64,000 nt of DNA. It comes from Fodinibius salsisoli. Its GTDB lineage: Bacteria; Bacteroidota; Rhodothermia; Balneolales; Balneolaceae. The first letter of the stretch is position 1; every line of letters starts with the position of its first letter. The position numbers and the translations under genes are program-made. The stretch covers positions 124,001 to 188,000 of the forward strand of contig NZ_JAGGJA010000001.1 in the NCBI RefSeq assembly GCF_026229185.1. Reading direction: 5' to 3'. The notes below the pieces were generated by a model. It saw only the letters and a list, made by a program, of their open reading frames with translations. It ran no database searches and was not told where the DNA came from. Shown here in pieces: positions 5,070 to 52,228 of this stretch.

Positions 5070-8012
5070 TTATTCAACAGATTTAACTGGAGTTAATTGT
5101 ACAGGTCCCAGCAGGCCAGACTCTTGCGGCTTCCATTCGGAAGCATCAAACAACCCACTCTCATTTCTATTTTCTCCCAGTCGAGCGGGGAAATTTACGT
5201 TGTAAAACTTCTTCCAAAAGATATTCTCTCGCTCCATATATGCAATACGATTTTCCATTGAACTGGCAACTTCAACCGTAAGCGTACTAGATCCAGAATC
5301 ATCAATTAACGTTGCAGGAATGAAAAGTTGATAAGGAGCTCCAATAACGGTTCCGACCTCCTCCCCATTGACAGTAACGCTTGCGCTCTCAGAAACTTTT
5401 CCAAGATCCAGTTGCCAACCCGCTCCCTCATGGCTGGGAACCTCGAACTCAATAGTATACTGAGCCGTGCCTGAAAAATTATGGTATTCGCTCCCCTCAA
5501 ATTTCGTCCACGACTGAAGATTATCCGTTGTTATTTCATCCGGGATCACGGGACCGCCTTCTAAAAATTCAATGGTCCAATCACCCTCTATAGCTTTAGG
5601 CTCGCCTGTTACAGCAAGATAGTTATAGGTAGTTGAATGTGTCTCCCCACTAAATGTTTTAACAATGCGTGATTCTCCCGGCTCCAGTTGCAGATATATT
5701 CGTGTACTTCCCTCAGATCCTTTTTTCATTTTGGCATATCCTTTACCATTCTGCATTGGATCAAAAATTGCTGCCGAAGAAGCTTCCACGGAGAGCGGAA
5801 CCCAACCGTCCACTTGTTTTTCGCTCCAATTAGTCACGAAATAATGATGCCCATCTTTGGAGGCCCGGCGGACGAACTCAAGCCCCTGGTCTGTCATCTG
5901 CTCGCGGTGAATCTTCCCTTCGCTTAACAACAAACTCAGGTCATCTGACAGCAGAACCTTTCCTTTTCCAAGCGAAGCGGATTGTAGTTGACCACTGTCT
6001 GTAAACTCCAGCTGGCCCAGCTGCTCCTTGAATGCTTTCTTATTCTTTTCAAGGTTGGATAATCCTGTTACCTTTTTTGGCAGCCCTTTGTACATCAGAA
6101 TCGTGCTGCCACCCTGTGCAAGCCGGAGTATATTTTCCAGCGTCCCCAGCGGCATATACTCAACGGCCGGGACCAGAATCGTTTTATAGGTCCCGCCTTC
6201 AGTATTAATGGCTTCTCCTGAAGATTCTGATGCTGTAATCTGACGGTCGGATACAAAATCAAAAGTATAGCCTTCTTCCTGCATCAGGTCGGCCGCTTCT
6301 TTAAAGGCTGTACCTTCAAACTGCTCATCAATACCCCCGTCGAAATGCTGAAGCATGGCCCGGCCCGGTTCTGCCCATCGGTCGTGAATTGGATAATAAA
6401 GCAATACATCGTTGTCGGCGTTGCCGGATTGCAGGAACGACTGTACCCGCCCCACATAACTGTTGAAAGCTTCAAAATGGTCCCAAAAAGGATTCGCAGG
6501 CTGGTAGTGAACCGCCGCATAAAACAGCCAGCCCGGCCAGCGGGCTTCATCAGGCGAATAGGCGGTTCCATGATACACGATATGATTCACACCACTGATG
6601 AAGTACCGATCAACTGCTGTCTTCGTCTCGGCCAGTGTAGCTTGGAAATGTTCATCCAGCCAGGTCGCCGCCTCTGCTGCAATTAGCGGCTTACCGGTTA
6701 CATTGGCTGCCGACGAAGCCATCTTGGCTCGCATAATATCGGTCCCCTCGGTCTCCGGGATATCACTGGATGCATACAGATCTAAGATGTTAGCGGGAGA
6801 CCCATGTGCCTGGTTACGTATGACAGCTTGGTTATCTTTTGCCCAAGATTGCCACGGCCGCGTAAACCTATCCAACAGTAAATCAGAAATTGTTTCCCTG
6901 AAATCAGTACGCACCCTCTCGGATTCTGCTCCATCACGCTCTTCATCCAGCAGGGCCGGCAGGTGGTTGCGAAGATCGTATCCCCTCCGCTGCTTAAACT
7001 CTTCAAAGAGTTTCGGGGTCCAGGCCGCTTCCCCGGACGCATCATCCACTTCATACGAATCGTTAAAGAAGGCGCGTAAGGACGATATATCTTGCCCCTC
7101 AAAGGCTTGGTCAAATTTACTTAAATAGTCATCAAGGGCTTCTTGAGAAAAATGGTCGATCACCAGTCCTTCTCCGCCGGGGGCTGCCCGTTCCACCATC
7201 TTGCCATGCCAGCCCTGGTACAGAGCGTAAAGGATCCAGTTGCCCTGCGGCGCCTGCCAGCTCAGCTTGCTATCGCCATCAACATTTTCAGTCAAGTCTA
7301 CTATTTTTCCGTCACCAGAATAAGCCATCACGGTTTGCAGCTCCAGCGGTTTTTCATAGCGGAGCTGACTAATAGCCAGAGACTGTAGATTTTCATTAGC
7401 TGAAACGGGTTCTTTGATATCTTTAATAGTGAGGTCCCGCTCCTCCGCTTGTTTTTGATCCGGATCGTTGAACCTTTTACCAATCATGCCGAGCATGGGC
7501 TCTTGCATGTACGTAAGGTCACGCTGAATATTTTGACCACCTTCGACATCCAAAATCTTGTACCGAAGATTTTTGCTGGCGTGCTCTTGCTCAGTCCACG
7601 GACCTCCAAAAGGCCAGCCAGTGCCGGTTGCCATATCGATTCCCAATCCCAAACGGTCCCCTTCCCGGAGCGTATGTTCCAGCATATCCATCCAATCTGA
7701 GGAAAGATAATTGATAAACTGGTCCTCGTAACCGGCGACTCCGTAGATGGGAGTAATCTCCACTCCCCCTATGTTCACGTTTTTCAGCTGCTCCAAATCG
7801 CTGGACAAATTTGCTTTATCCACGGCATTTCCTTGCCACCACCAGCGGGTCCAGGGTTTATTTTCTTCGGTAATTTCCGGCCAGGTGGGCTCTGTTTGAG
7901 CATATCCATCCAGCCCAAAAGAGAAAAGCAGAAAAGCAGTTAATAATCCTTTAAAGAAAAATTTTTCTATTTTTTTTGTAGCAAGCATATGATCAAAATT
8001 TTGGTTAGCCAT
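5070..8012 (-). CDS. GH106 family alpha-L-rhamnosidase
   Basis: A secreted 980-aa enzyme expected to remove terminal alpha-L-rhamnose from rhamnogalacturonan side chains or backbone ends. GH106 hallmarks are visible: the N-terminal block around TRWWWQG (residues 55-61), the stretch LGLGIDMATGTGWPFGGPW (about 121-139), a long (beta/alpha)8 catalytic region, and C-terminal beta-sandwich modules with a galactose-binding-like domain (WQLDLGKVSESASVTVNGEEVG). The signal peptide ends near GYAQ (residue 39). The start at 8012 lies 12 bp after the preceding gene; an alternative at Met9 (7988) would give a more conventional signal peptide. It is the last gene of the rhamnogalacturonan locus, directly after the PL11 lyase, and the rhamnose released would be the substrate of the nearby RhaM. 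Confidence 0.92.
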   Translation of the reverse strand: MANQNFDHMLATKKIEKFFFKGLLTAFLLFSFGLDGYAQTEPTWPEITEENKPWTRWWWQGNAVDKANLSSDLEQLKNVNIGGVEITPIYGVAGYEDQFINYLSSDWMDMLEHTLREGDRLGLGIDMATGTGWPFGGPWTEQEHASKNLRYKILDVEGGQNIQRDLTYMQEPMLGMIGKRFNDPDQKQAEERDLTIKDIKEPVSANENLQSLAISQLRYEKPLELQTVMAYSGDGKIVDLTENVDGDSKLSWQAPQGNWILYALYQGWHGKMVERAAPGGEGLVIDHFSQEALDDYLSKFDQAFEGQDISSLRAFFNDSYEVDDASGEAAWTPKLFEEFKQRRGYDLRNHLPALLDEERDGAESERVRTDFRETISDLLLDRFTRPWQSWAKDNQAVIRNQAHGSPANILDLYASSDIPETEGTDIMRAKMASSAANVTGKPLIAAEAATWLDEHFQATLAETKTAVDRYFISGVNHIVYHGTAYSPDEARWPGWLFYAAVHYQPANPFWDHFEAFNSYVGRVQSFLQSGNADNDVLLYYPIHDRWAEPGRAMLQHFDGGIDEQFEGTAFKEAADLMQEEGYTFDFVSDRQITASESSGEAINTEGGTYKTILVPAVEYMPLGTLENILRLAQGGSTILMYKGLPKKVTGLSNLEKNKKAFKEQLGQLEFTDSGQLQSASLGKGKVLLSDDLSLLLSEGKIHREQMTDQGLEFVRRASKDGHHYFVTNWSEKQVDGWVPLSVEASSAAIFDPMQNGKGYAKMKKGSEGSTRIYLQLEPGESRIVKTFSGETHSTTYNYLAVTGEPKAIEGDWTIEFLEGGPVIPDEITTDNLQSWTKFEGSEYHNFSGTAQYTIEFEVPSHEGAGWQLDLGKVSESASVTVNGEEVGTVIGAPYQLFIPATLIDDSGSSTLTVEVASSMENRIAYMERENIFWKKFYNVNFPARLGENRNESGLFDASEWKPQESGLLGPVQLTPVKSVE

Positions 8013-8024
8013 ATTTACAGTGGC

Positions 8025-9899
8025 CTATTGAACGATAGAAATATTCGGTTGTTTAGGGGTGGACATCTCCTCTCCGATATAGAAACCGGGATGTGGCGGC
8101 TGGTTATAAGCTACATTCTGCCAGGCAATACTCATCCGGTAGATGGGATCTTGCATGAGCGTTGTAAACCGATGCTGAGTGGGATTTGTAGTAGTATATA
8201 TCCGAAGTTCTTCCCCATCCTCAGATCGCCAAATCACTTCTTCCCGCCAGTCGCCCAGCAAATCGGCACTCAAAGCAGGCGTAGCTTTTGTCCAGTTATT
8301 GGAAGTTGCCCCTTCTGCCTCAAGCAGCAAGTCCGTCGTTTCCTCTTCCCAATTCCATTTGGTAATACGATTTTCGGTTAACAGTTCCCGCTGCAGATCG
8401 CCATCCCACCAAAGCGCAAAATTACACGACGCTGGCTTCTGTTGGGATATCTGTTCTCCCTTCACATTAAAAAGACCTTCAATACCTCCACCCCGTACCC
8501 AAACTTCGGTTCCCGGATACCGCGGGTCAATATTGGCAGCCAGTCCGCGGCCAGGCCCTTCGCCTTCGTCGCTGGCTGTAACCGAAGGCTTTTTCCAGAG
8601 TATTTCGCCCGAATCGGCATCGCGCAGATTGGCCCCGGCATCATCAAAGCGCTCCTGAATATGAAACACTTCCTTTCCCGGATAGTTGGGATCCAGATTT
8701 CCAAAGTGCAAGGCATCTCCATGACCGATGCCCGTAGCATACAAACCGGTTCCATCGTCGTCAATAGCGGCTGCCCCAAAAATTATTTCATCTTTATTAT
8801 CGCGATCTACATCGCCAATACTCAGCTGATGATTCCCTTCTCCGCTATAGGCTTTATGTCCGGGCATGCCATCTTCACTGTCAAAGGTCCACTGGTGGGT
8901 TAATTTGCCGTCTCGCCAGTTCCAGGCTGCCAGTACAGAGCGCGTGTAGTAGCCCCGGGTCATGATAAGGCTTGGACGCTCACCATCCAGGTAGGCTACA
9001 CCCGCCAGGAAACGGTCCATGCGGTTGCCATATCCATCACCCCATATTTTGTCAAGCTGATCTCTTGTCGGGGTAAGCGTTTCCGGATGGCGCGGCGGAA
9101 TGTAGTCGGTTGTAGCCAATGCTGCTCCCGTTTGACCATCAAACACCGTTAAATATTCCGGCCCCTCAAGGATATATCCCTCATCATTGCGGTAGTCCGC
9201 CTCTTTATCACCAATCACTTTACCCGTGCCATCCACTGTTCCATCGCCGGTTTTACAAGCAATTTCAGCTTGGCCATCGCTATCCAGGTCATACACGATA
9301 AACTGGGTATAATGAGCGCCTTCCCGAATATTCTTGCCCAAATTGATGCGCCACAGCTGTGTGCCGTCCAGTTCATAGGCATCCAGGATGGGCTCGTCGG
9401 TAAAGCCGGAGTGCGAATTATCATGCGAACGCCCGGTCATATGGACGACCAGCTCGTACTCCCCGTCGCCATCCAGATCACCTACAGAGGCATCGTTGGC
9501 TGTATATCCTTCGGGCGTATCTACCGGCACCGAAAGGTAGGGATGGGATTGATCAAACTGATACCTTTGGCTTGCCTCTCCTTCCTCGCCGTCAACAATA
9601 GGGCGGACGAAATAAGAAATTTTGCTTATATTCGCGGGGACTTTTTTATCCACAAAATTGGTGCCTTTTGAAAGCAGTGTTTTATTCAGCTTTTGAGGTG
9701 AGCCCCCGCCTGAAACACGATACAAATTAAAGGCCACATCAGGCGCATCTGATGCCAGCAGCCGCCAACTGATAAAGGCGCTGCCCTCTCCCTGGGGAAT
9801 CGCTACAACACCCCGATCGAGCTGCTCCATATGCCGCTGTGCCTTCGATGACTGTACGAAAAAAACAATTAATATCAATGCTAACAGCCCCTTCATCAT
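8025..9899 (-). CDS. PL11 family rhamnogalacturonan lyase
   Basis: A secreted polysaccharide lyase of family PL11 (YesW/YesX type) that cuts the rhamnosyl-galacturonosyl backbone of rhamnogalacturonan I by beta-elimination. The mature protein begins with the typical MEQLDRGVVAIPQGEGSAFISWRL block and continues through an eight-bladed propeller with repeated calcium-binding-like segments (DLDGDGEYE, DLDSDGQAE, DRDNKDE). The frame is open to 10064, but the first 55 codons run through a GC-rich intergenic repeat (9929-10017). The start at Met56 (9899), giving 624 aa, puts a normal signal peptide (MMKGLLALILIVFF, cut near SKAQ) at the N-terminus. It sits between rhaM and the GH106 gene. Confidence 0.93.
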   Translation of the reverse strand: MMKGLLALILIVFFVQSSKAQRHMEQLDRGVVAIPQGEGSAFISWRLLASDAPDVAFNLYRVSGGGSPQKLNKTLLSKGTNFVDKKVPANISKISYFVRPIVDGEEGEASQRYQFDQSHPYLSVPVDTPEGYTANDASVGDLDGDGEYELVVHMTGRSHDNSHSGFTDEPILDAYELDGTQLWRINLGKNIREGAHYTQFIVYDLDSDGQAEIACKTGDGTVDGTGKVIGDKEADYRNDEGYILEGPEYLTVFDGQTGAALATTDYIPPRHPETLTPTRDQLDKIWGDGYGNRMDRFLAGVAYLDGERPSLIMTRGYYTRSVLAAWNWRDGKLTHQWTFDSEDGMPGHKAYSGEGNHQLSIGDVDRDNKDEIIFGAAAIDDDGTGLYATGIGHGDALHFGNLDPNYPGKEVFHIQERFDDAGANLRDADSGEILWKKPSVTASDEGEGPGRGLAANIDPRYPGTEVWVRGGGIEGLFNVKGEQISQQKPASCNFALWWDGDLQRELLTENRITKWNWEEETTDLLLEAEGATSNNWTKATPALSADLLGDWREEVIWRSEDGEELRIYTTTNPTQHRFTTLMQDPIYRMSIAWQNVAYNQPPHPGFYIGEEMSTPKQPNISIVQ

Positions 9900-9928
9900 C
9901 CCCCTGATTACGGATAAAAACGCCGTAA

Positions 9929-10017
9929 CCTTCCCCCTTCGAAGGGGGACAGAGACCGTGGAATGCCACAATGTGGCCCCGGCTTGCCGGGATTCCACAA
10001 GGGCAGGGGGATGACTG
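9929..10017. repeat. GC-rich palindromic intergenic element, copy A
   Basis: A compact nested-palindrome element lies between rhaM and the PL11 gene. It contains the perfect palindrome CCCCCTTCGAAGGGGG (9933-9948), an outer GTGGAAT/ATTCCAC pair, and an inner GCCCCGGCTTGCCGGG-type hairpin around 9977-9991, ending in a GGGCAGGGGG block. On the minus strand it would form a strong stem in the leader of the PL11 message. It resembles the CCCCT/AGGGG-arm elements at 19575, 41483 and 42722 in design, though not in exact sequence. Confidence 0.75.
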
Positions 10018-10077
10018 CCTTTTAATTTATCTTGGAGCCTTGATCTTTGAGATATCGTAATCATATGTTCAATAATA

Positions 10078-10398: not shown

Positions 10399-11796
10399 TC
10401 ATTCAATCGTATAATTTACGCTATCGGCATCCGCTGAAAACTCCTGTTCCAGCCTTTTCTTCATCCCAGCGACTTTCTTAGGATATTTATCCATAACATT
10501 GTTTATCTCTTGCGGATCTTCAGCAAGCTGGTAGAGTTCATAGTCCGGCTCTTCATCCGGATGTCGGGTTCGAATGATTTTCCAACCCTGCGTAATGAAA
10601 CTTTCCTGCAGATGACCCCGAATATAAACCTCGCGTTCTTTCTCATAATCCTGATCCTGACCGGATACCTGAGGCCAAATATTTCGACCTTCAATACTAC
10701 AAGGCTGGGTATCTACGCCCGCAAGCGCTAAAAATGTCGGCATCAAATCTGTTACATTTACTAACTTATTGAAAGCACCTTGGTTGAGTTGCCCATCCCA
10801 GTAAAGTACAGCCGGCACCCTTATGCCGCCTTCATAATTTGAGGTTTTCCATCCACGATAGGGCTGATTACTGCCCAGCGTCCGATTGGGACCAAACTTG
10901 CCGTCGTACTGCCAGTCGGGCACCCATTCCTCCTGGGCACCGTTATCACTCATAAAAAGCACCAGCGTGTTTTCTTCGAGGCCCTCTTTCTTCAGGGTTG
11001 CTATAAGCTGCCCTATGCCGTGATCCATATGCGTCATCGCCGCAGCATAATCCAGGCGCGAGGTGTCGCTAATAACCCCTTGATATCTTTCTTTCCACTT
11101 TTCTTCTTCCTGCAAAGGCGTATGCGGAGCACTGTAGGCAACCTGTAAAAAGAAAGGGCTATTCTGATCTCTTTTTTGGCTCAGCCAGTCAATTGCTTCC
11201 TGAGTAATCAGGTCGGTAGCATGCCCTTCTTCGTCGATCAGCTTGCCATTCTTGTACCAGCTGGCGTCGCCGTTTTTATAGTTGTGGGTATACTGATCAA
11301 TCTGGCCGTGCAGGAAACCATAAGAATAATCAAATCCATAGGCGCCCGGACCACTTTCCGTGGTCAATCCCAGATGCCATTTGCCCATCAAGGCCGTTTG
11401 GTAGCCGGCTTGCTGTAATGCTTGAGGAAGAGTGGTGATAGAGTCGGGCAACGCCTTTTTGCTTCTGCCGCTTATGGGAACGACGATGCCCATTCTGCTG
11501 GCGGGCATCCCGGTCAGGAAAGCTGCACGGGTGGGCGAGCAGGTTGGAGCCACATAGAATCGAGAGAGAGCGACCCCACTTGATGCCATTGAATCGATAT
11601 TGGGCGTCTCAATTTCGGATCCGTGATAGCCGACATCATTCCAGCCCGCATCATCGGCCATAATAACCAGAATATTGGGCCGCTGGGTCTGCTGCGAATC
11701 GTCTGATCCTGAACAAGATACGGTCAGCAAAGAAACCAGCAGAGCAATAACTGCCATAAAAAAACTACATTTATTGCTGTCATTATCTTGCACCAT
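10399..11796 (-). CDS. S1-type sulfatase (FGly-dependent)
   Basis: A 465-aa exported sulfatase of the alkaline-phosphatase-like superfamily. The N-terminus has a hydrophobic signal followed by a lipoprotein-like Cys28 (LTVSC), though the lipobox is not ideal. The metal-binding start (NILVIMADDAGWNDVGYHG) and the formylglycine signature C86-S-P-T-R are intact, with the downstream GYQTALMGKWHLG and FLQVAYSAPHTPL blocks expected for the family. It needs a formylglycine-generating enzyme, which is not in the window. It lies between the GH31 gene (15 bp upstream) and rhaM (12 bp downstream) and is clearly part of the same operon. The target is probably a sulfated sugar on the same glycan; the subfamily was not resolved. 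Confidence 0.93.
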   Translation of the reverse strand: MVQDNDSNKCSFFMAVIALLVSLLTVSCSGSDDSQQTQRPNILVIMADDAGWNDVGYHGSEIETPNIDSMASSGVALSRFYVAPTCSPTRAAFLTGMPASRMGIVVPISGRSKKALPDSITTLPQALQQAGYQTALMGKWHLGLTTESGPGAYGFDYSYGFLHGQIDQYTHNYKNGDASWYKNGKLIDEEGHATDLITQEAIDWLSQKRDQNSPFFLQVAYSAPHTPLQEEEKWKERYQGVISDTSRLDYAAAMTHMDHGIGQLIATLKKEGLEENTLVLFMSDNGAQEEWVPDWQYDGKFGPNRTLGSNQPYRGWKTSNYEGGIRVPAVLYWDGQLNQGAFNKLVNVTDLMPTFLALAGVDTQPCSIEGRNIWPQVSGQDQDYEKEREVYIRGHLQESFITQGWKIIRTRHPDEEPDYELYQLAEDPQEINNVMDKYPKKVAGMKKRLEQEFSADADSVNYTIE

Positions 11797-11811: not shown

Positions 11812-14346
11812 TCATTTTTCGATTGTAGCCGTAATGTCATCGCTACTACTGCCCGAAAGACGAATGTGCAGCTGACCGGACTCCTCATCAAAATACCAAG
11901 CGGCACTATGTATGTCATCCCTAAACGCAGCCAAACTTGACGCAGAAGAAATTTGCGTGCCATCTTCTTCAACGGCATCGGGTTTGTCGTCAAGATGGAC
12001 AAGCAGCTTATAGCCTCGCTCCGGCACCTCGTAATCTCCTTCGGGAGCTTCGACTCCAACCTCAATTTGATCATCAGAGTCCTCGGAGCTTATGGATGTT
12101 ATAGCATATTCCCCGTTTTCGTAATCCTTGCTGCTTCCGTCATCATCATAGATCTCAAAAGAAGACGTTCCGTGGGGAAAGATCTCCAGCGTCAGCGTAT
12201 CCGCGGGCTGCTCGCCCAGCGATTCAATATTATTTCGTTGTGGAAGGATCCCCCCAGCCTTGACAAAGAGCGGCAACTTTTCCAGTGGAGTCACAATATT
12301 ATGATACTCTTTGCCTTTGTACTCTTTGCCGGTCCAGTAATCGTACCAGGTTCCCTCTGGCAGATATACAATGCGAGTCTTTGCCCCTTTGGTCGTCACC
12401 GGCGCCACCAGCAGGTTATCTCCTAACAGGTATTCATCATCAATGCCGTATACATTTTCATCATCCTGATATTCAAGCACCAGCGCGCGCATCAGCGGCA
12501 TGCCGGTATTGTGCATCTCCCAGGCTTCGCTGTAGATATAGGGAATAAACCGATACCGCATGCGATCATACTTTTTGAAGATACGCTGAGCTTCCTCCCC
12601 GTAGTTCCAAGGTTCTTTGTAGCCGGGGTGATCCATCCCAAAAACATGCGCTATGGGACTAAACATGCCAAATTGCGACCATCGGATATATAGCTCAGGA
12701 TCAGCTTTGTGCTCAAACCCACCCATATTGTGCGACCAGTAGCCCACACCAGAAAGGCCCATATTCAGTCCTGCCCGGATGACCGGCTCAAAATATTGCC
12801 ACTCACTAGGCCAGTCACCCGCCCAGATGTATGGATACCGCTGGATACCGGCATAGCCTTCGCGCGTGAGATTAAATCCCCGCATGTTATTTTCTTTGCT
12901 AAATCGTTCAAACGGCACCTTGGCATAGGCCACCGGAAAGACATTGTGTAGTCGCTCGGCATCTTTGCCTTGTGGACCGACTTTATTGCTTTCATTCGCT
13001 TTACGTCCAAAGGCACTTCCCTCATCCGTTTTAAAGAACATCGCGCCCTGTTCCACCACCATGCTGACGCCATTCTCCCACCACCAATCTATGGCGGTAG
13101 AATCAAAGAAATTCACAAACTCACCGGAATTATCCGGCTCTGGGTAGACCATATTCGCCTCCCGGGCGCGATCCAGCAAGTTATACTTTTTTCCATTATC
13201 GTAACGGGGACGCACATGCAGGCCTACCATATCGTAGCCCATGGCATACAGACTGTCGAACATGGCCGTGGGATTATCGAAAGTTTCGCGCCACTCGAAA
13301 GTAGTAGAACCGTGGCCATTCTTTCCGAAGATGCGCCAGGTTGAATCCAGATGCAGGATATCGGCCGGGATGCCAAGCTCTTTAAACTTGCGGCCCAGAT
13401 TGACCACATAATCGGTGGAGGTATGTTCCTCATGTCCCCAAGTGCCCCCGCTGTACGTTCCCACATTGAGTCCGTGGGTAGCTTTAGGCGTCAACGGAGA
13501 CTTGCCGGTCACTTCAGTATAACTATCCAGGATGGAAGGGAATTCGGGTCCGTGAATAAAATAGTAATCCAATTCGCCAGCTGCTTTGAAGGAGTAACTA
13601 TCTGGATTGGAATGCCCCATATCCCAGGTAGATCTATAGGGCGTATGGAAAAAGATACCGTACCCGCGCGTACTCATAAAGAAGGGTACCGGGCTGTAAT
13701 TGGCCTCGAGAATGTTATAGGCACCAACAATATGCGGACGTCCCAGTCCCCGCCCTACATTCAGCTTAATCTTTTTACCCCGCTGATTGACGAAGTCCAT
13801 ACGTTCGCCGAACCCAAAAAACTGTTCTTCCGGGAAGAGCTTCTTCTTAACAGATACCGTATCTTGGTTCTTTACCATACCGCCTCCAGAACTGGCCAGC
13901 TTCTCTGTGGATAGTAACTCCCCACCTGACGAGTAAAAAGCGATTCGCAACGGAGCAGTTGAAACACGCAAGCGCAGATCGGTTGTCTCAAAATCATAAA
14001 AACCATCGCCCTCCGAAGACTCAACCTGCACCGGTCCCCAGTCATATTGGGTGACCATCCAGGGTTCCGGTTCCGCGAACTCTCCATCCCAACTGGCCCG
14101 CACCCGCACCATAGATGGAGTACAGAACTCCAGTTTAATATCGGCATTCGAAGTTGGAATCGTAATGATGTTACCTTCTTTTTCCCATTGCCCCACTGCA
14201 TCTCCCGGTGTTACCTGGGCATTCACCGGGTTGGCTATCAAGAAACAAAAAACGATACTCATGACAACTGACCAAGAGGTCTGCAAATTCCAATTGACAG
14301 CTGATGCTTCTGTTTGACTATACTTCACCCAATAATTCATCTTCAC
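11812..14346 (-). CDS. GH31 family alpha-glycosidase
   Basis: An exported 844-aa GH31 enzyme. The signal peptide is preceded by a long N-terminal region and ends near PVNAQ (residue 44); a start at Met29 would also give a short signal. After a beta-sandwich domain, the (beta/alpha)8 core shows LHLDSTW, the nucleophile region FFKTDEGSAFG with Asp441, and the acid/base region WAGDWPSEW with Asp511. The GFEHKADPELYIRWSQFGMFSP block follows, and C-terminal beta domains complete the family architecture. GH31 members include alpha-glucosidases, alpha-xylosidases and alpha-galactosidases; the exact specificity cannot be read here. It is co-transcribed with the sulfatase (15 bp) and probably trims side chains of the pectic glycan. 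Confidence 0.92.
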   Translation of the reverse strand: MKMNYWVKYSQTEASAVNWNLQTSWSVVMSIVFCFLIANPVNAQVTPGDAVGQWEKEGNIITIPTSNADIKLEFCTPSMVRVRASWDGEFAEPEPWMVTQYDWGPVQVESSEGDGFYDFETTDLRLRVSTAPLRIAFYSSGGELLSTEKLASSGGGMVKNQDTVSVKKKLFPEEQFFGFGERMDFVNQRGKKIKLNVGRGLGRPHIVGAYNILEANYSPVPFFMSTRGYGIFFHTPYRSTWDMGHSNPDSYSFKAAGELDYYFIHGPEFPSILDSYTEVTGKSPLTPKATHGLNVGTYSGGTWGHEEHTSTDYVVNLGRKFKELGIPADILHLDSTWRIFGKNGHGSTTFEWRETFDNPTAMFDSLYAMGYDMVGLHVRPRYDNGKKYNLLDRAREANMVYPEPDNSGEFVNFFDSTAIDWWWENGVSMVVEQGAMFFKTDEGSAFGRKANESNKVGPQGKDAERLHNVFPVAYAKVPFERFSKENNMRGFNLTREGYAGIQRYPYIWAGDWPSEWQYFEPVIRAGLNMGLSGVGYWSHNMGGFEHKADPELYIRWSQFGMFSPIAHVFGMDHPGYKEPWNYGEEAQRIFKKYDRMRYRFIPYIYSEAWEMHNTGMPLMRALVLEYQDDENVYGIDDEYLLGDNLLVAPVTTKGAKTRIVYLPEGTWYDYWTGKEYKGKEYHNIVTPLEKLPLFVKAGGILPQRNNIESLGEQPADTLTLEIFPHGTSSFEIYDDDGSSKDYENGEYAITSISSEDSDDQIEVGVEAPEGDYEVPERGYKLLVHLDDKPDAVEEDGTQISSASSLAAFRDDIHSAAWYFDEESGQLHIRLSGSSSDDITATIEK

Positions 14347-14382: not shown

Positions 14383-16539
14383 TTACTGCATTTTCTCAAT
14401 GTTTTCCCACCTGATGTTCCACTTTCCGTTATCCGGGAAGCCCGGGGTCTCCGTGTCAGGTCCGTTTTCCCATCCAGCGACCATCATGGCTACAGCGGTT
14501 AGTAAACCACCGTTGCCCGGCAGATACAACCGCAGCCGTTTATCCTGATAGTTATGTCCATTCTTCAGGTAGGTATTTTTGTTCATATCCATAAACAGGG
14601 CATCCACGGCCTTCTCGGGCATATCCAGTTTAGCAGCCGCCATGGCTATCATCGGATAATCCCAGCCCCAGGTACTCTCCCATATCCAGTGATCCTCAAT
14701 TTCATGATAGGTATTGGTCATAATCGACTCATCAACCAGCTCTGCCGAGGGGAGCATTCCATAGGCCCCGAGCACCACCGGGTGGTCATGCCGATATTTG
14801 TCGTTGGTATAAGCATTGGGTGTGAGTGCATTCGGAAGGTATAGGTTATCCTTCCGGGGTAGTGGCGCAAGATTATCCGCTATCTTCTGCCACCCTTTGT
14901 TGACAGGTAAATCCAACCGTTCCCTCCATTTCTGAGCAACCGACAAACCATAATGCCAGTAGGCCATCTCAAAGGGTGGATCTTTGGTGTTCATGGTTTC
15001 AAACAACTCCTGGGCAGGCTTTACGGGTCGGGTCAAATGGTACTTTCCGTCGGTAGAATCATAGGTTGCAAAGGAAGCCATAAACTCAGCCGTAGCAAAC
15101 ACACGGTCCTTATACTTTTCAAGCACTTCTTGACTTGGATTTTGCCGATAAAGCTCTTCTGCAAAATAGATGGGATGCGGTTGCTGCCAAACCAATACTT
15201 CACCCACGCTTGAAGGACTTTTACGTCCACCGGGACCCGTCATTTTTTGCCAGCGCACGCCATCATACCCCTGCCACTCTGCCGTTCCCCGGGCTTCATC
15301 CATCACTTTAGTGTACCAATCAAGGCTATTTTCTAAATATTCAATGCGATTCCAGAGCGCATAGTGCACTCCGTGCCACCAGTGCATTTCCAGGTGAAAT
15401 TTGCCGTACCAGCTGTTCATCGTCAGACCTGTCTCCTGGGGTGGCAGCGAGCCACTGGTCTGGATCTTGGTTAAATATTGCGATAAAACAACTCGTCGCT
15501 CGAGTTCTTCCGCCCGCGGATCGGTGGAGCCGGAAAAATCAATCGCGCCGCCACTCTCCCAAAAGGCTTCCCATTGCTGCCGACTGTTTTCTGCCGTCGC
15601 TTCAAATTCATCGGGTCCCTCTTCCTCTTCACTGAAGAGTACATTAAAGGCAAAGGTATCTTCAACGGTTTGAGGGGAAAGCTGAAAATGATGGGTTCCG
15701 ACTTCCGTCAATTTTCCAGCAGACTCCCACTGCAGATCAAGCCGGTAGTTTGTTTCATCCAGCGTTCTCTGAAGCCGGGCTTCATAATCAGACCCAGTGA
15801 TCAACTCTGTTTCATGTCGGTCGGGTTTAGTCCAGTCATAGCCCGGACAAACATGACAATCACTTCCATAAGGAAACTGGAATTTCACCTTAAGACGATT
15901 CTTGGCCACAAGCGGTGATTCGATGCGTACCGATATTTGATCCTGTTCCTGGTGGGCAAACAGCTCTACCCGTACGGGCTCACCATCTACCGTGTATTGG
16001 CTTTCAATTTTGCCGGTCCATAGATTCAGCGTTTGATCGATATTCTGTATATCCTGGATATCGGCCTCTTCTCCGTTTTCTTTCAGCAATGTTAGTCCCA
16101 CTAATCCCAAATGTAGACGATGCGGATTGGTTCGCAGCCAGTGGGCCGCCTCAGCGCCTCGTCCTTCATCCGGTTGTACAGCATAGGGCACTTCCCGACC
16201 GTCATCCGTGGTATAATATTTTGCTACGTCTTCCATGATATAGTTGCCGGTATTCGGGAAACTGTGCCATCCCCACTGCGACTGCGTGCCCAGCGGAATG
16301 CCCCGCTCGTAAAATTCCGGAAAGGTTTGAAGTCCTGTAGCCCCAACAGTAAAAGCAAATTCACCATTGCCTACGGACAAAGAATTCAATGAGTCAAACT
16401 CCATTATCTCCACATTATGGCGAGTGACCAAGGCATGGCGATCAATAAAATTTTGGGCTTGCAACCCGTTGTTAATCCCCATCAATAAAACTATGAGCAG
16501 TGTATTAAAAACAAATAGAAACGGCCGTTTTTTAAACAT
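14383..16539 (-). CDS. Exported six-hairpin glycosidase, GH65-like, specificity unknown
   Basis: A 718-aa exported protein with an (alpha/alpha)6 six-hairpin core. An N-terminal beta-sandwich starts HNVEIMEFDSLNSLSVGNGEFAFTV-like, as in GH65/GH95-related enzymes. The helical core carries LPPQETGLTMNSWYGKFHLEMHWWHGVHYALWNR and a C-terminal HWIWESTWGWDYPM block. The start was moved from 16605 to Met23 (16539), which gives a normal signal peptide ending near GLQAQ. It is preceded by a 262-bp gap containing a LacI-type palindrome at 16683-16698, so it may start its own transcript with GH31, the sulfatase, rhaM, PL11 and GH106. The family is not certain; an unsaturated-galacturonyl hydrolase role is possible because no GH105 or GH88 gene is present. 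Confidence 0.7.
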   Translation of the reverse strand: MFKKRPFLFVFNTLLIVLLMGINNGLQAQNFIDRHALVTRHNVEIMEFDSLNSLSVGNGEFAFTVGATGLQTFPEFYERGIPLGTQSQWGWHSFPNTGNYIMEDVAKYYTTDDGREVPYAVQPDEGRGAEAAHWLRTNPHRLHLGLVGLTLLKENGEEADIQDIQNIDQTLNLWTGKIESQYTVDGEPVRVELFAHQEQDQISVRIESPLVAKNRLKVKFQFPYGSDCHVCPGYDWTKPDRHETELITGSDYEARLQRTLDETNYRLDLQWESAGKLTEVGTHHFQLSPQTVEDTFAFNVLFSEEEEGPDEFEATAENSRQQWEAFWESGGAIDFSGSTDPRAEELERRVVLSQYLTKIQTSGSLPPQETGLTMNSWYGKFHLEMHWWHGVHYALWNRIEYLENSLDWYTKVMDEARGTAEWQGYDGVRWQKMTGPGGRKSPSSVGEVLVWQQPHPIYFAEELYRQNPSQEVLEKYKDRVFATAEFMASFATYDSTDGKYHLTRPVKPAQELFETMNTKDPPFEMAYWHYGLSVAQKWRERLDLPVNKGWQKIADNLAPLPRKDNLYLPNALTPNAYTNDKYRHDHPVVLGAYGMLPSAELVDESIMTNTYHEIEDHWIWESTWGWDYPMIAMAAAKLDMPEKAVDALFMDMNKNTYLKNGHNYQDKRLRLYLPGNGGLLTAVAMMVAGWENGPDTETPGFPDNGKWNIRWENIEKMQ

Positions 16540-16681: not shown

Positions 16682-16699
16682 AGTACAATCGATTGCACA
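16682..16699. promoter_or_regulatory. LacI-type operator palindrome, site 1
   Basis: The 16-mer GTACAATCGATTGCAC (16683-16698) is a palindrome around a central CG with one mismatched pair; the core CAATCGATTG is perfect. A central CG and inverted half-sites are typical of LacI-family operators. A 17-bp run is identical to the site at 26207-26223. It lies about 140 bp before the start of the six-hairpin gene. The cognate regulator is not in the window. Confidence 0.7.
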
Positions 16700-16801: not shown

Positions 16802-19519
16802 TTAATTCCACGCGGGATGCTTTTCCGGCATCTGGTTTTCTATAAGTTCCAGGATCTGGATGGCATTCAGGCACCATTGTGCCGTTTCATTCGTTGAGGT
16901 CCAGGGACTCACTTCCATCGGGTGGAGGACCTCCGGACCAGAAATATTTATTGTTTCAAAACGCTGTTCGGGTTTTGGCCAGCCAGAGTTACCCAGGAAA
17001 TCTTTCCAAGCGCGCTCTGCCAGTTTGGGATCATCCAGCTGAACAGCAGCATAAGCCGTCAATCGTGCATGCCACGACTTAAAATTGCCATCGCCAACTG
17101 TTCCATCCGAAGAACTGCGGTCAGGTGAATCTTGTGGTATTGAATAGAGTCGGCTATAATTCAGAAATGTTTCTTCAAACCCTTCATGATCGATTAGATC
17201 CGTCAGCTCAAATAAAACTTCAGCTCCGCCCATAATCATGAGCAGGTGCGAGGTGTGATGGTCATACGGTTGTGCTGTATCATTCAGCAAACGACCGGTT
17301 TCCGGATAAAAGCCCAGTACGCCCGGACCTGAAAACAGCCCGTACCTCATCGACGCAATGCTGTCGAAGCCGTTCTTAATTTTCTCCAGATACTTTTCAT
17401 CCCCGGTACGTTCCCAGGCCGTCATCCAGTTACCTGCCAGGGCAAGCCAGTCGGGTCCTACCCGCAATCGTGTTGGGGCTTCGGTTGGATATTCGTCTGC
17501 AGGCATAGCCTTTCTCATAGGATCAAGTTTTGTATAAGACTCTTCGGTATCACTCACATTATGCATCAGGTCACCCGTGCGTTCGTCAGTGGTCAGGTAG
17601 TAGTAAAAACGTCGCAGGGCAGCCTGGCTGATCCGTGCTTCCTTGGCTCCATCGCCCCAATGAATTACATTGTGGCGAGTACCCAAATCTTCAAACCGTC
17701 CGGAATGGTACACATCCACTTCTCCAGTGTGGCGCGTCATGGCTTCGGCCATCCGGAAGATATCCTCGCGACCGGTGCGCAGATAGCTGTACCATAGCCA
17801 CATATCTGGAACCAATTCTGAATTAGCCCAGGCAAATCCCCCGACGTCGTATCGCCATTTATGGCGCACCCCGTCATAGCTGTGCATTACATCCCCATAG
17901 TCCCAGAAACCGTACCAACGACGCTGTTCAATCTCTTTCTGATATACCTCAATGGCCGCATCAAGTTTATCTTCTATCCATCGCTTGCCCGGAGATGAGC
18001 GATCGGGCAGACTCCAGACTCCAAATACATTGGCAGAGTGCAGATACTCCGGTGAGGCTGTAAGCAGGGGCGGATTTTGGCTGACATTAGACTTTGTAGC
18101 ATATTTTTTGTGTGAAGCAACCGATCCTTCTGGAAAAAGTGTTAATACATGTGTCCGTGCCACCCCATTAGCAATGCTAAACCCTTCCTGCACATCTTCG
18201 TAGCTGGCCTGTAAGCCATGGGCTTCAGTATCATAGTGGCGCATATCCATGGCCGGGGCTTCCGGCGACCACATCCAGACGTTGAGTGTTGCGACATCCT
18301 TAGTGGCGTCATTAATCTCGAGGTGAGACGGATACGTCTGCCAAAAATTTTGAAGTCCAACGCCCAGACCACCACTGACATCTCCCACAAAAGCAAAGCC
18401 GCTAGCGCGTGTGCCGGCGCCTGCTGCAATCCATTGCCCCTTGGGGCTCGTCCGTTTTTGAATGGTAAAGCCATCCGGACTCTCCTGCACTAATTTGAAA
18501 TCATTCCAGTCAGCTAAATCATTAATCAAACCTTGAACCGGTGGTTCAAATTCTTCTACGTTGGGCACGCGATTCCCCTTCTCCTGGGCGGGATAGACCG
18601 ACTCATCTTGGTAGCTGATGCGACGGCGGCTGGCCAACGGCTTTACCGGCTCGGCCCAAAGTCCCTGATCTTTCCCAGAGAAGCGAATGTGCCGGTTATG
18701 TACCTGCTCCCGCATAGGAACATCAAACTGGAGACCAAGTCCCTTAATGAAATCCTGTTGTTGGTTACCATCGTAGGTAAACGAGTGGACCATTTTTACT
18801 GGATTACTATCCGCATAAAAATAAAGTCGCACTGTAAAAGGCAGCCATTCGAGGGTTCCCTGGACTGCCTGATGCCTACCATCGAAACGGATTACCGCTC
18901 GAACCGGGCCATCCTGCTCAATACGTACCGAGTCAATACGGCTCACTGTTTTTTCCCGATTTGGTGGATTCAAAACATCCTCTCCGGGACCTTCCTGGTG
19001 TATCGCCACCAGTCGTGCAGAACCTGCTACTTTACGACCGTCAACCACGATAGAGTCGATAAGTGAACGCCCTCTCTCAGCCAAATGAGTTGCCATAGTC
19101 CCATTTTTTATCTTAATCTGTCCATCCTCTCGTTCGACTGAAAGTGGCGAGTCCAGCTGATTAGCTTCTTCTTTTTTCTCCACAACGGATAGCGTCAAAG
19201 GACCTTCATTTGTGGTATCAACCGTCGTAGCTAACCCGACCCATTTTAAGGATCCATCTGGCCAGTAAGCCGTAGGCCAGCTCTGTACAGGCAATCTACT
19301 TCCATTAGCCGTGGCAAGTGTAAACTGGATTCCTTTTTTTACTTCACCTTGTGGAAATGGCACTCCCCAACTCACGCCTGCAGGCACGTCGGGCGCTTGG
19401 TCTTTAAGCCAGTGTAATTTCACTCCGGAATCCTGACCTTGAGCAACTAACTCAAAGTTCATTCCAACACAGACAAAGACAAAACCAAGTACAACTAAAC
19501 TCTGTAAAACCTTTTTCAT
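16802..19519 (-). CDS. PL26-type exo-rhamnogalacturonan lyase (PcRGLX/YetA-like)
   Basis: An exported 905-aa protein with the three-part layout of PcRGLX/YetA-like proteins. An N-terminal RIFT-barrel-type domain runs from VKLHWLKDQAPDVPAGVSWGVPFPQG through WPDGSLKWVGL. A central beta-rich domain contains the ASGFAFVGDVSGGLGVGLQNFWQ region. The helical toroid includes RWYGFWDYGDVMHSYDG, HTGEVDVYHSGRFEDLGTRHN and HLLMIMGGAEVLFEL. Family PL26 members release unsaturated rhamnogalacturonan units from chain ends. The signal peptide ends near ELVAQ. It lies between the CE12 esterase (a 250-bp gap with repeat copy B) and the six-hairpin gene. The family assignment rests on recalled architecture and context. 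Confidence 0.82.
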   Translation of the reverse strand: MKKVLQSLVVLGFVFVCVGMNFELVAQGQDSGVKLHWLKDQAPDVPAGVSWGVPFPQGEVKKGIQFTLATANGSRLPVQSWPTAYWPDGSLKWVGLATTVDTTNEGPLTLSVVEKKEEANQLDSPLSVEREDGQIKIKNGTMATHLAERGRSLIDSIVVDGRKVAGSARLVAIHQEGPGEDVLNPPNREKTVSRIDSVRIEQDGPVRAVIRFDGRHQAVQGTLEWLPFTVRLYFYADSNPVKMVHSFTYDGNQQQDFIKGLGLQFDVPMREQVHNRHIRFSGKDQGLWAEPVKPLASRRRISYQDESVYPAQEKGNRVPNVEEFEPPVQGLINDLADWNDFKLVQESPDGFTIQKRTSPKGQWIAAGAGTRASGFAFVGDVSGGLGVGLQNFWQTYPSHLEINDATKDVATLNVWMWSPEAPAMDMRHYDTEAHGLQASYEDVQEGFSIANGVARTHVLTLFPEGSVASHKKYATKSNVSQNPPLLTASPEYLHSANVFGVWSLPDRSSPGKRWIEDKLDAAIEVYQKEIEQRRWYGFWDYGDVMHSYDGVRHKWRYDVGGFAWANSELVPDMWLWYSYLRTGREDIFRMAEAMTRHTGEVDVYHSGRFEDLGTRHNVIHWGDGAKEARISQAALRRFYYYLTTDERTGDLMHNVSDTEESYTKLDPMRKAMPADEYPTEAPTRLRVGPDWLALAGNWMTAWERTGDEKYLEKIKNGFDSIASMRYGLFSGPGVLGFYPETGRLLNDTAQPYDHHTSHLLMIMGGAEVLFELTDLIDHEGFEETFLNYSRLYSIPQDSPDRSSSDGTVGDGNFKSWHARLTAYAAVQLDDPKLAERAWKDFLGNSGWPKPEQRFETINISGPEVLHPMEVSPWTSTNETAQWCLNAIQILELIENQMPEKHPAWN

Positions 19520-19769: not shown

Positions 19770-21413
19770 TTATTCTACAGGCCTCAACCGGTAAACCCGA
19801 AAATCTGAATAGATGTGATGGGTATTCACCAGCCGAAAGCCAAACCATCCTTCCTCATATGCGAGGAACCGCTCGTTAGTATATCTCACTTCTTTAATAC
19901 TTCCATCAGTATTCGTGATCTTTACCATATCTCCGTTACGTATTTCATAAAAAACCTTACCATCCACGATGTATTGAATAACATCGTCAAAGACAACCAG
20001 CTGTATTGTATACGTCCTGTTCGGTTTAATAAGATACTCTTCCTGTCCATCTCTGCTTGTGAGAGCGAGGTGATTAGCAGGCTCGCCGTCTTGGGTGCGT
20101 GGGTATCGCCTGAATCGTGTCGTGGTATTGTCCCGTCCCCCCATACTTGCATAATAACCCTGCTGTTTGTGATAGGAGGTAAATGCCCCGGTATATTTGT
20201 CCTGATCAAACAGGGCGTCAGGAATCTTTGGATCCGAGGCATGCCAAAAAACATTGATGTCACGAACGACGATCCCCAGCTCATCTACGTAGGTTGAAGG
20301 AGCTTTGACCTTGTACGTAATTGCAACATTACCGCTAAACTTCTTTTTATTCCAGATGGTCGCTCCTCGTCCCGGCACTAATACTTCCAAAAAGCCATTC
20401 CAAAAGTCTACGCGTGGCTGGATGGGAGAATTCGCCTCTTCTATTTGAACCCCCCACACATCCGGATCGTCAAAATCACTTTGATACATAAGCTCACCAA
20501 CCTCAAAAAGCCCCTCTCCATAACCGGTTACAACGGGACGCGAAGCCTCTTCTGCCTTATTCCGGCGGGACGTCACTTTATCAGCTTTATCAGAAAACCA
20601 ATCACTCACCGGATTTTCTTGCAACCCTTTCAAAGCCGCTACGACCATCTTCGCACTAAATTGGGCTCCGGTACGCGTTGTATGCACCCGATCGTCCGAG
20701 AAGAACTTCTGCTTTTTTGCTTCACCCACTTCCTGGTATCCCTGAGTAATGATGTCGTTTAAATCCAGGAAAGGGACTCCTTCGGTCGTAGCTACTTGCT
20801 CGGCCCATGTTGCAAATTGCTCCTCATCATCAATTACATCTCCGTTCGTCGGTACCAGCGAACAGATGACTGGAATTGCTCCCCGGCTTCGAATATCCGA
20901 AATATAGGTTCGTAGATAGGAGCCATAGGTACGGACTGTTTCATCTTGGCGCGTCAGTTTATTGAAAATGTCTCTTTTTTCACTACCAATGCCATCCAAA
21001 ACGCCCCGGGCGCGACTGGTGTCGTTCACCGGACTGGCATCGTTATGTCCAAATTGGATGATGACTGCATCCCCGGCATCCAATAACTCGAGTTGCTGAT
21101 CCCAATAGCCCTGTGTGATATAGGTCCTGCTGCTACGTCCCCCCAGCGCCCGATTCACCACATTCACTTTGGTTGAGTCAAAATAAGCTCCCAGAAAACT
21201 TCCCCATCCCCATTTGCCGTTTGATCCGTCCCCGCTTCCATTCCTTACGGTGGAATCTCCCACCAGGTAAATAGAGGGTACGTTAGCATTAGCAGCTTTG
21301 GGCAGCAGGATGTCACGTTCATTGGCGTTCTGGGAATGAGCCGAGCCGACAAACAGGATTCCAATAATAAGTAACGAGCAACTGCATACCCCGAACTTCT
21401 TTAAATAAGACAT
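19770..21413 (-). CDS. CE12 rhamnogalacturonan acetylesterase with C-terminal DUF6250-like domain
   Basis: A 547-aa exported protein with two domains. The N-terminal SGNH hydrolase has the CE12 blocks: GDST with the nucleophile Ser54, the oxyanion Gly91 (RALGGRSSRTY), QFGHND with Asn124, and the Asp241/His244 pair in SDDRVHTT. The C-terminal half (about residue 300 on) is a concanavalin-like beta-sandwich resembling DUF6250, often fused to such esterases. It would remove acetyl groups from rhamnogalacturonan so that the lyases can act. The frame is open to 21467, but the start at Met19 (21413) gives a standard signal peptide ending near SAHSQ. A hairpin terminator lies between it and the upstream SusD gene. 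Confidence 0.92.
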   Translation of the reverse strand: MSYLKKFGVCSCSLLIIGILFVGSAHSQNANERDILLPKAANANVPSIYLVGDSTVRNGSGDGSNGKWGWGSFLGAYFDSTKVNVVNRALGGRSSRTYITQGYWDQQLELLDAGDAVIIQFGHNDASPVNDTSRARGVLDGIGSEKRDIFNKLTRQDETVRTYGSYLRTYISDIRSRGAIPVICSLVPTNGDVIDDEEQFATWAEQVATTEGVPFLDLNDIITQGYQEVGEAKKQKFFSDDRVHTTRTGAQFSAKMVVAALKGLQENPVSDWFSDKADKVTSRRNKAEEASRPVVTGYGEGLFEVGELMYQSDFDDPDVWGVQIEEANSPIQPRVDFWNGFLEVLVPGRGATIWNKKKFSGNVAITYKVKAPSTYVDELGIVVRDINVFWHASDPKIPDALFDQDKYTGAFTSYHKQQGYYASMGGRDNTTTRFRRYPRTQDGEPANHLALTSRDGQEEYLIKPNRTYTIQLVVFDDVIQYIVDGKVFYEIRNGDMVKITNTDGSIKEVRYTNERFLAYEEGWFGFRLVNTHHIYSDFRVYRLRPVE

Positions 21414-21456
21414 GCTAATATTATAGAATATGTTAACAACAAACATTGTGTAGCTT

Positions 21457-21502
21457 AAAAAAGCCACGCCAGAATTATAGGCAGCTACCTATAACTCTGG
21501 CG
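21457..21502 (-). terminator. Intrinsic terminator or attenuator between SusD and CE12 genes
   Basis: Read on the minus strand, the arms CGCCAGAGTTATAGG (21502-21488) and CCTATAATTCTGGCG (21481-21467) form a 15-bp stem with one mismatched pair and a 6-base loop. A short GTGGC spacer and six Ts (21462-21457) follow. It is the most convincing intrinsic terminator in the locus. Because it sits 29 bp after the SusD stop with enzyme genes downstream, it probably reduces enzyme transcripts relative to SusC/SusD. Confidence 0.82.
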
Positions 21503-21530: not shown

Positions 21531-23102
21531 TTAGTATCCAGGGTTTTGATCTAAATTTGAATTTGCATCCAAAGCCTCCGTGGGGATAGGGAATAACCTG
21601 CGGTACTCTTCGGATGGCTCCTTAAACTCCCACGAGCTATTGGTAAACTGACCGAAGCGGATTAGGTCTCGTCTTCGCGACATCTCAAAAGCAAGCTCTC
21701 GTCCACGCTCATCCAGGATGTCCTGCAGGGTCAGAGAAGTTAGAGGTGAAGCATTACTTCGCTCTCTTACCCTGTTTACCAGCGCTAACGGATTACCAGT
21801 GCCTGACCGCAACTGGGCTTCAGCCTTGACAAGCAGGATATCCGCATATCGAATCCATGCGATATCGTTACTGGCATCACCGCCATCGGTATTGGGATCA
21901 AGCCCCCATTTTATCCATTTAACACCTGCATTCATCGGCTGATTTCGAAGGCCGTCAGCTTTGATAATTTCATAGGGTACAGGTCCTTGGTCCGACTCTC
22001 CTTCAACATATAACTCTGAGTTTCCATCCGGCACAATGCGTTCTACCATAACGGTATCGCCGGTACGGGGATCAGTCAGTGGTCCCGGGGTAAGGAACAT
22101 CTCTTTCCTAACATCTTGGTCTTCATATAACTCCACTACAGAAGGACGAGTCCCAAAACCATTTTGCGGAGTAAAGGGCAGGTCAAACAAGCCACCGGTA
22201 ATACCGGGAAGCACTTTCAGCACAAAAGGATGCCCGATCCCACCCGTTTCGTTGGGCGTATAGACACTGCCGAAAATCATTTCTTCGTTATTACTATTAT
22301 CCGCTGCAAAATTGGCGTGATAATCATCGAGCAAACGATAGGCACCAGAATTTATCACCTGGTCGGCATACTCTATAGCCATATCGTATTGAGCATCGCC
22401 GGTATAAACCTCAGCATTAAGATAGGTCGTTGCTATAAGGGCATAGACGGCTTCCTTGGTGAGACGGCCGTAATATTCTGCCCCGACATCATTAGCAGAG
22501 GGTAATACTTCTGCTGCAGCAGACAGTTCTTCGATGACAAAATCAAAAACTTCTGTCCGTGTGTTCTGCGTAGGCAGATTATTGGGATCCACTTTGGGCT
22601 CTGTAAAGATGGGTACATTTCCATAGAGATCCATTAGGTAAAAATAGGCATAAGCACGTAGTGCTCGTAACTCAGCAATGGGACCTTCCAGCCCATCCAG
22701 ATCGGAGCTGCGTAATGAACTGATCAAGGCATTTGCCTGACCGACGGTACCAAAAAGTTGATTCCAGAAATCGCCAATCCAAGCATGCGAGGGCGTCCAC
22801 TCATGGCGGGCCAGATTATGGAAATCAGGTCCATCCCACCACCCCTGAATTTTGGCATGAACCACCACCTGGTCGGTAGTAAGCTCTAAAACACGGTAAG
22901 GAGGACCCATACTCGAGATAGTAGCAAAATCTCTATAGACTCCAGACAGCGAGGTTAGGATTGATGACTCATTATCGTAATAATTATCCGGGGTAAACAC
23001 AGAATGCGGTTGTTCCTGTAACTCACAAGCCGGGAATATAACTAATAGCGCTACAGCTAACATAAGCAGCTGCTTATTTATTCTTTTCATTGATTCTTTC
23101 AT
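21531..23102 (-). CDS. SusD/RagB family outer-membrane lipoprotein (second pair)
   Basis: The glycan-binding lipoprotein lid of a SusC/SusD outer-membrane importer, about 523 aa. A lipoprotein signal ends at IFPAC, followed by the TPR-rich SusD body (WIGDFWNQLFGTVGQANALI, LRALRAYAYFYLMDLYGNVPI) and the C-terminal signature RRRDLIRFG and LFPIPTEALDANSNLDQNPGY. The start is placed at 23102 (Met8 of the open frame); Met12 (23090) is equally plausible. It follows the SusC gene by 44 bp and is ended by the hairpin at 21457-21502. The partner SusC has no STN domain, so this pair is not expected to signal through a FecR protein. Confidence 0.95.
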   Translation of the reverse strand: MKESMKRINKQLLMLAVALLVIFPACELQEQPHSVFTPDNYYDNESSILTSLSGVYRDFATISSMGPPYRVLELTTDQVVVHAKIQGWWDGPDFHNLARHEWTPSHAWIGDFWNQLFGTVGQANALISSLRSSDLDGLEGPIAELRALRAYAYFYLMDLYGNVPIFTEPKVDPNNLPTQNTRTEVFDFVIEELSAAAEVLPSANDVGAEYYGRLTKEAVYALIATTYLNAEVYTGDAQYDMAIEYADQVINSGAYRLLDDYHANFAADNSNNEEMIFGSVYTPNETGGIGHPFVLKVLPGITGGLFDLPFTPQNGFGTRPSVVELYEDQDVRKEMFLTPGPLTDPRTGDTVMVERIVPDGNSELYVEGESDQGPVPYEIIKADGLRNQPMNAGVKWIKWGLDPNTDGGDASNDIAWIRYADILLVKAEAQLRSGTGNPLALVNRVRERSNASPLTSLTLQDILDERGRELAFEMSRRRDLIRFGQFTNSSWEFKEPSEEYRRLFPIPTEALDANSNLDQNPGY

Positions 23103-23146
23103 AATACTATAAGCTTTTGACATTCATTTTGTATCGTATATCGGTT

Positions 23147-26170: not shown

Positions 26171-26204
26171 GACCCTATATTTTTGGTGAATATTGCTGAT
26201 CCTT

Positions 26205-26224
26205 TTGTACAATCGATTGCACAA
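26205..26224. promoter_or_regulatory. LacI-type operator palindrome, site 2
   Basis: TTGTACAATCGATTGCACAA is a 20-bp palindrome with a single mismatched pair and a central CG, just upstream of the second SusC gene (34 bp before the ATG at 26170). It shares 17 consecutive bases with the site at 16683-16699, in the same orientation. Two such matches in gaps ahead of pectin-locus genes are strong evidence of a shared operator. I assign it to the LacI family by its form. Confidence 0.75.
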
Positions 26225-52101: not shown

Positions 52102-52228
52102 GGAAAAATTTCTGGCTGTTTTCTACAATAGACACAGCCAAAACTCCTTTGTACCGGATTTTCTATTATTTAATACGAAATTATTTCTGTAGCAGGTAAA
52201 CTGGACAGTATGATAAAGCCTAAATGCT

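Follow-up and report, generated by a model that had tools for sequence, protein, structure and literature searches.

An exported GH65-like protein family without a Pfam or NCBIfam name in a rhamnogalacturonan-I locus of Fodinibius salsisoli

Unsaturated uronyl hydrolases of families GH105 and GH88 are built as an (alpha/alpha)6-type toroid, and the catalytic domain of GH95 works with an Asn/Asp base pair. The kojibiose hydrolase FjGH65A is described as using E472 as general acid and E616 as base, with W343, D344, K538 and Q539 forming subsite -1 and W391, E392 and T407 forming subsite +1; according to the same description, the subsite -1 residues are fully conserved across GH65 (PMC8626586). 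An account of Bacteroides thetaiotaomicron has GH105-type enzymes acting on rhamnogalacturonan-I (RG-I) oligosaccharides, which a GH106 rhamnosidase with GH28 rhamnogalacturonidases then finishes, GH28 taking care of the GalA-Rha step (PMC8002723).

The protein considered here, called X below, is encoded in a 64,000-nucleotide stretch of the Fodinibius salsisoli genome (the window; contig NZ_JAGGJA010000001.1). The first-pass annotation had placed its reading frame at 14383-16539, and this proves to be a real minus-strand frame. The frame opens at GTG 16605, an alternative start giving 740 aa, and the in-frame ATG 16539 begins a signal-peptide-like stretch (MFKKRPFLFVFNTLLIVLLM); relatives of X are mostly 704-775 aa long and preserve the frame with no stops. 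Because the start resembles a signal peptide, a phosphorylase role for X seems unlikely. X lies among the following features; where a Pfam name (PcRGLX, for example) stands beside a PL or GH number, the number is the family taken to correspond.

5070..8012, minus strand: GH106 alpha-L-rhamnosidase (PF17132)
8025..10064, minus strand: PL11 rhamnogalacturonan lyase (PF21348, E 6.6e-224)
10399..11796, minus strand: sulfatase (domain match)
11812..14346, minus strand: GH31, directly downstream of X (domain match)
14383..16539, minus strand: X, exported GH65-like protein of 718 aa (ATG 16539 to stop 14383)
16682..16699, minus strand: operator-like near-palindrome TGTGCAATCGATTGTACT upstream of X (chance expectation 0.05)
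16802..19519, minus strand: PL26, PcRGLX-type exo-rhamnogalacturonan lyase, upstream of X (PF21346, E 1.1e-171)
19770..21467, minus strand: GDSL rhamnogalacturonan-acetylesterase-like protein with DUF6250 (similarity to a solved relative)
21531..23123, minus strand: SusD-like protein (domain match)
23147..26224, minus strand: SusC-like TonB receptor (domain match)
26206..26223, plus strand: second operator copy TGTACAATCGATTGCACA at the SusC gene start (near-palindrome)
28130..29392, minus strand: pectate-lyase-like protein, the third lyase (phmmer match with a pectate lyase of known structure, E 7e-30)

Judged by its gene content, X sits in a genuine RG-I locus. The three lyases reported at first pass were recovered as the PL11, PL26 and pectate-lyase-like proteins, and X does head an operator-linked gene block, with operator copies upstream of X and at SusC where 0.02-0.05 matches would be expected by chance. 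The best solved relative of the protein at 19770-21467 is a rhamnogalacturonan acetylesterase (E 1.8e-28), and its GDSL domain is fused to DUF6250. Elsewhere in the window, the region 40590-63024 carries genes for Gfo/Idh/MocA proteins, sugar-isomerase-type TIM barrels, a 3-keto-disaccharide hydrolase, cytochrome c and DUF4432, and looks like a 3-keto-glycoside pathway. ECF sigma/FecR pairs are found at 37369-39760 and 51022-52819, each adjoined by SusC/SusD genes.

The absence of a GH105 or GH88 gene, noted earlier for the locus, extends to the whole genome. PF07470 (GH88/GH105) has no match among the 38 window ORFs scanned or in the genome, which is 98.12% complete. KduI (PF04962) was likewise not found in this genome. 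Since PF07470 and KduI are both absent, the usual unsaturated-galacturonate route is, as far as these profiles tell, missing in two tested parts, genome-wide and beyond the X locus. Four GH28 genes are present on other contigs.

X had been called a protein of unclear family, and this description stands. It matches no Pfam or NCBIfam model, and as a single sequence it gives no confident match to any solved chain; a search of open-licence papers found no report on the X family or on DUF4450, a frequent neighbour discussed below. A link to GH65 emerges through its relatives: when 66 of them are made into a profile, a PDB search with it yields GH65 enzymes (best E 1.9e-5). Weak matches occur among the 66 themselves: 17 to PF03632 and 25 to PF14498 (GH65N_2) at E<=1, and 21 to the NCBIfam kojibiose-hydrolase model at E<=0.01. 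PF03632 at E<=0.001 is not matched by X and has no matches in its genome. Compared by hhalign, the X relatives score 97.2% (E 4e-11) against a set of GH65 hydrolases and 91.8% against a mixed GH65 set. X has no profile similarity to the GH105 neighbours (1.5%), on which ground, at profile level, it is rejected as a GH105 relative, and neither the Pfam GH95 catalytic model nor a single-sequence hhalign comparison with a GH95 gives a significant match. A second distant GH65-like exported protein, with a weak PF03632 match, was seen in a Flavobacterium genome (L102:631-2742).

The AlphaFold2 model of X (pLDDT 93.3, pTM 0.91) contains the N-terminal beta-sandwich and (alpha/alpha)6 barrel of GH65. 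Its best PDB match is FjGH65A (7fe3), an alpha-1,2-glucosidase (Foldseek E 4.4e-25), and the overlay with GH65 that the first-pass annotation had proposed gives Z 36.6 by VIA, with an rmsd of 2.7 over 581 aligned residues at 15% identity. Human PGGHG (GH65-type, 9sd8) also aligns well, including the region of its acid E430 (Z 32.7 over 554 residues), although identity over the aligned region is 15% and its base E574 has no conserved acidic counterpart in X. GH95 and GH139 alpha-1,2-fucosidases match the fold over its full length (Z 23-28) at 12-15% identity. Among the best 50 fold rows, alpha-1,2-active enzymes fill several other top positions and GH105 structures do not appear; viral structures at E<=0.001 are solely GH65/GH95 proteins of algal viruses. 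GH105/GH88 enzymes share with X an RG-I gene context, whereas X does not match PF07470, and GH105 is thus a neighbour with no detectable relationship. The model and the N-terminus together back the earlier view of X as an exported, six-hairpin, GH65-like protein. Read from the model, X would be an exported enzyme placed near GH65 and GH95 (clan GH-L type, with a beta-sandwich and an (alpha/alpha)6 barrel) in a family without a Pfam or NCBIfam name; confidence in the fold is high.

The active site sets X apart from GH65 proper. FjGH65A residues were mapped onto X in a joint alignment, with the FjGH65A orthologue L101 (792 bits) as a bridge. The acid E472 aligns with X E533, which is kept in 66/66 relatives, whereas the tested subsite residues are replaced by others that are themselves conserved: W343 by L405 (61/66), D344 by E406 (66/66), W391 by K454 (66/66) and E392 by M455 (65/66). 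F625 likewise corresponds to Y694 (66/66). At the K538/Q539 columns the X relatives do not keep KQ, although the alignment is uncertain in this region. The base E616 is lost, with no conserved acidic residue at the matching loop in the relatives; hhalign and MAFFT disagree on this loop, the former placing the invariant N685 at the base position and the latter a gap. At this loop, D688 is an Asp in only 50/66 relatives. With the acid kept and the base and tested subsite residues replaced, X is by alignment GH65-like in fold and general acid yet falls outside GH65, and is ruled out as an ordinary member of that family. Invariant residues include H404, H411, R451, K454, D607, H608, D649 and H684, with K402 (65/66) and H408 (64/66) nearly so, and the basic ones among them may form a pocket that suits an acidic sugar. 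MAFFT sets H404/E406 near the GH95 N-I-N-T-E-M stretch, with low confidence.

Relatives of X are common, with at least 569 genome stretches confirmed in a contig scan, 80 loci of which were kept. The locus counts that follow are not phylogenetically independent. Genes within 10 kb of X include GH28 (43/80), DUF4450 (32/80), GH105/88 (25/80), PL11 (24/80), GH2 (18/80), GH106 (16/80), RhaT (9/80) and a rhamnulokinase-type gene (7/80). At least one of GH28, GH105, PL11, GH106 and DUF4450 occurs in 58/80 loci; in the 22 others, where 65 of the 96 listed neighbours were scanned, there is no shared theme beyond Gfo/Idh/MocA (6), GH31 (3) and GH43 (3). The immediate neighbours (<300 bp, on the same strand for downstream genes) are PL11 (14/80), GH105 (10/80) or DUF4450 (8/80) downstream, and DUF4450 (15/80) or GH106 (8/80) upstream. 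For example, the same-genus genome G012 has a GH78 rhamnosidase about 100 bp upstream of X, followed by GH106, and a Planctomycetota MAG has PL26 97 bp upstream. The upstream slot is held by rhamnosidase-type genes: GH106, GH78 and DUF4450. The DUF4450 proteins near X (L050:6381-9782 and 31 other loci) are mostly 1130-1240 aa long. A DUF4450 model (pLDDT 79) has alpha-L-rhamnosidases as its best VIA-align matches (Z 28) and GH94-type phosphorylases as its top Foldseek rows. DUF4450 and GH106 occur together in 4 of the 58 RG-I-marker loci against 8.8 expected (p=0.007), an exclusion that is lost over all 80 loci (p=0.26). In a phylum sample of 394 genomes, X was counted at full length in 26, leaving out one fragment and 22 weak GH65-like matches. 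PL11 is present in 16 of these 26 genomes and in 4 of the 368 others (p=2e-18), and X is carried by 16 of the 20 PL11-bearing genomes. Together, these comparisons describe a real, common, GH65-like family that has no Pfam or NCBIfam name and a probable role in RG-I use.

Our tentative reading, held with somewhat less than even confidence, is that X is an inverting exo-alpha-glycosidase acting beside a rhamnosidase on RG-I, most likely on GalA-alpha-1,2-Rha. Confidence in the RG-I role is good and that in the substrate is low. X would act on RG-I oligosaccharides in concert with an alpha-L-rhamnosidase: the rhamnosidase would strip the terminal rhamnose, exposing the GalA-alpha-1,2-Rha bond that X would then cut. 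E533 would protonate the leaving oxygen, and water would be activated by a base not of the GH65 type, perhaps H404/E406 or another invariant Asp/His, while K402, R451, K454 and several His would accommodate the acidic sugar. The enzyme working in partnership with a rhamnosidase would be an alpha-1,2-galacturonosidase, and alpha-1,2 bonds are the target of several enzymes of the GH65 type. The GalA-Rha role is weakened by the presence of GH28 near X in more than half of the loci, and the four GH28 genes of this genome add to the case that X may duplicate an existing activity on that bond; the 22 loci showing none of the five RG-I markers also count against it.

The same logic bears on the reading of the first-pass annotation, in which X is the missing unsaturated-galacturonyl hydrolase, cutting delta-GalA-alpha-1,2-Rha in place of GH105. 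That bond is alpha-1,2, and the genome has no PF07470 match. Within the order (128 genomes), seven genomes have strong PL11 or PL26; three of them carry X without strong GH105 (G000, which is X's own genome, G012 and G075), two carry GH105 without X (G024, G035), two carry both (G021, G127) and none carries neither. This pattern of substitution is not significant (n=7, p=0.43). The tree groups the X proteins of the window and G012 with those of Bacteroidota resembling Pontibacter, Rufibacter and Chryseolinea in a clade of 15 rows (SH-aLRT 100), apart from those of G021, G065, G075 and G127; this placement suggests that X reached this lineage horizontally, without GH105. Six of 67 X genomes examined lack strong GH105, five of them in the window X clade. 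Against this, the relatives of X track GH105. Strong GH88/105 (E<1e-40) occurs in 23/26 X genomes of the phylum sample and 67/368 others (p=2e-13), and strong GH105 in 37 of 40 further genomes reached through X loci. The ten loci counted above with GH105 directly downstream include 6/15 rows of the window X clade, and the closest relatives outside the genus are among them. The conserved X residues are identical in groups with and without GH105, and KduI, which the usual downstream route requires, is missing too. Adjacency and co-occurrence rule X out as a general GH105 substitute, a missing-step role is unsupported as its general function, and replacement of GH105 is retained as an improbable rival on account of the small pattern within the order. 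Family, fold, export, operator block and GH105 gap stand from the earlier description, and the filling of that gap by X is unsupported: the gap is real, and X probably does not fill it. A related long shot is that X, using its GH65-type acid in a direct inverting attack, cuts unsaturated galacturonyl-alpha-1,2-rhamnose and is the sole enzyme to do so where a lineage has lost GH105 or never possessed it.

A somewhat unlikely alternative is that X takes off an RG-I side chain or decoration (e.g. alpha-galactose, alpha-L-fucose/galactose or alpha-glucuronate) and not a backbone sugar. GH31 adjoins X in the window and in 4/80 loci and lies 135 bp away in L105, GH43-type genes adjoin it in 13/80, a GH95 gene follows it in L040, and alpha-1,2-fucosidases are among its nearest fold families in the best 50 rows. 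However, X is more strongly linked to the backbone lyase PL11 and rhamnosidase-type genes, and its many conserved basic residues also count against this reading. It is also doubtful that X is an alpha-L-rhamnosidase of a new kind: the (alpha/alpha)6 fold and the RG-I and rhamnose-use context (RhaT, rhamnulokinase-type genes) would suit one, but GH106, GH78 and DUF4450 rhamnosidase-type genes already adjoin X, and its fold is closer to GH65 (Z 36.6 for FjGH65A) than to the rhamnosidase 4xhc (Z 21.0).

In summary, if X is an RG-I exo-glycosidase, as we favour, a widespread step of pectin breakdown still awaits assignment. Direct attack by X on the unsaturated substrate, if true, would give this step a second chemistry, alongside the hydration of the double bond by GH88/GH105. 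The genome also raises the question of how PL11 and PL26 can serve an organism that lacks GH88, GH105 and KduI.
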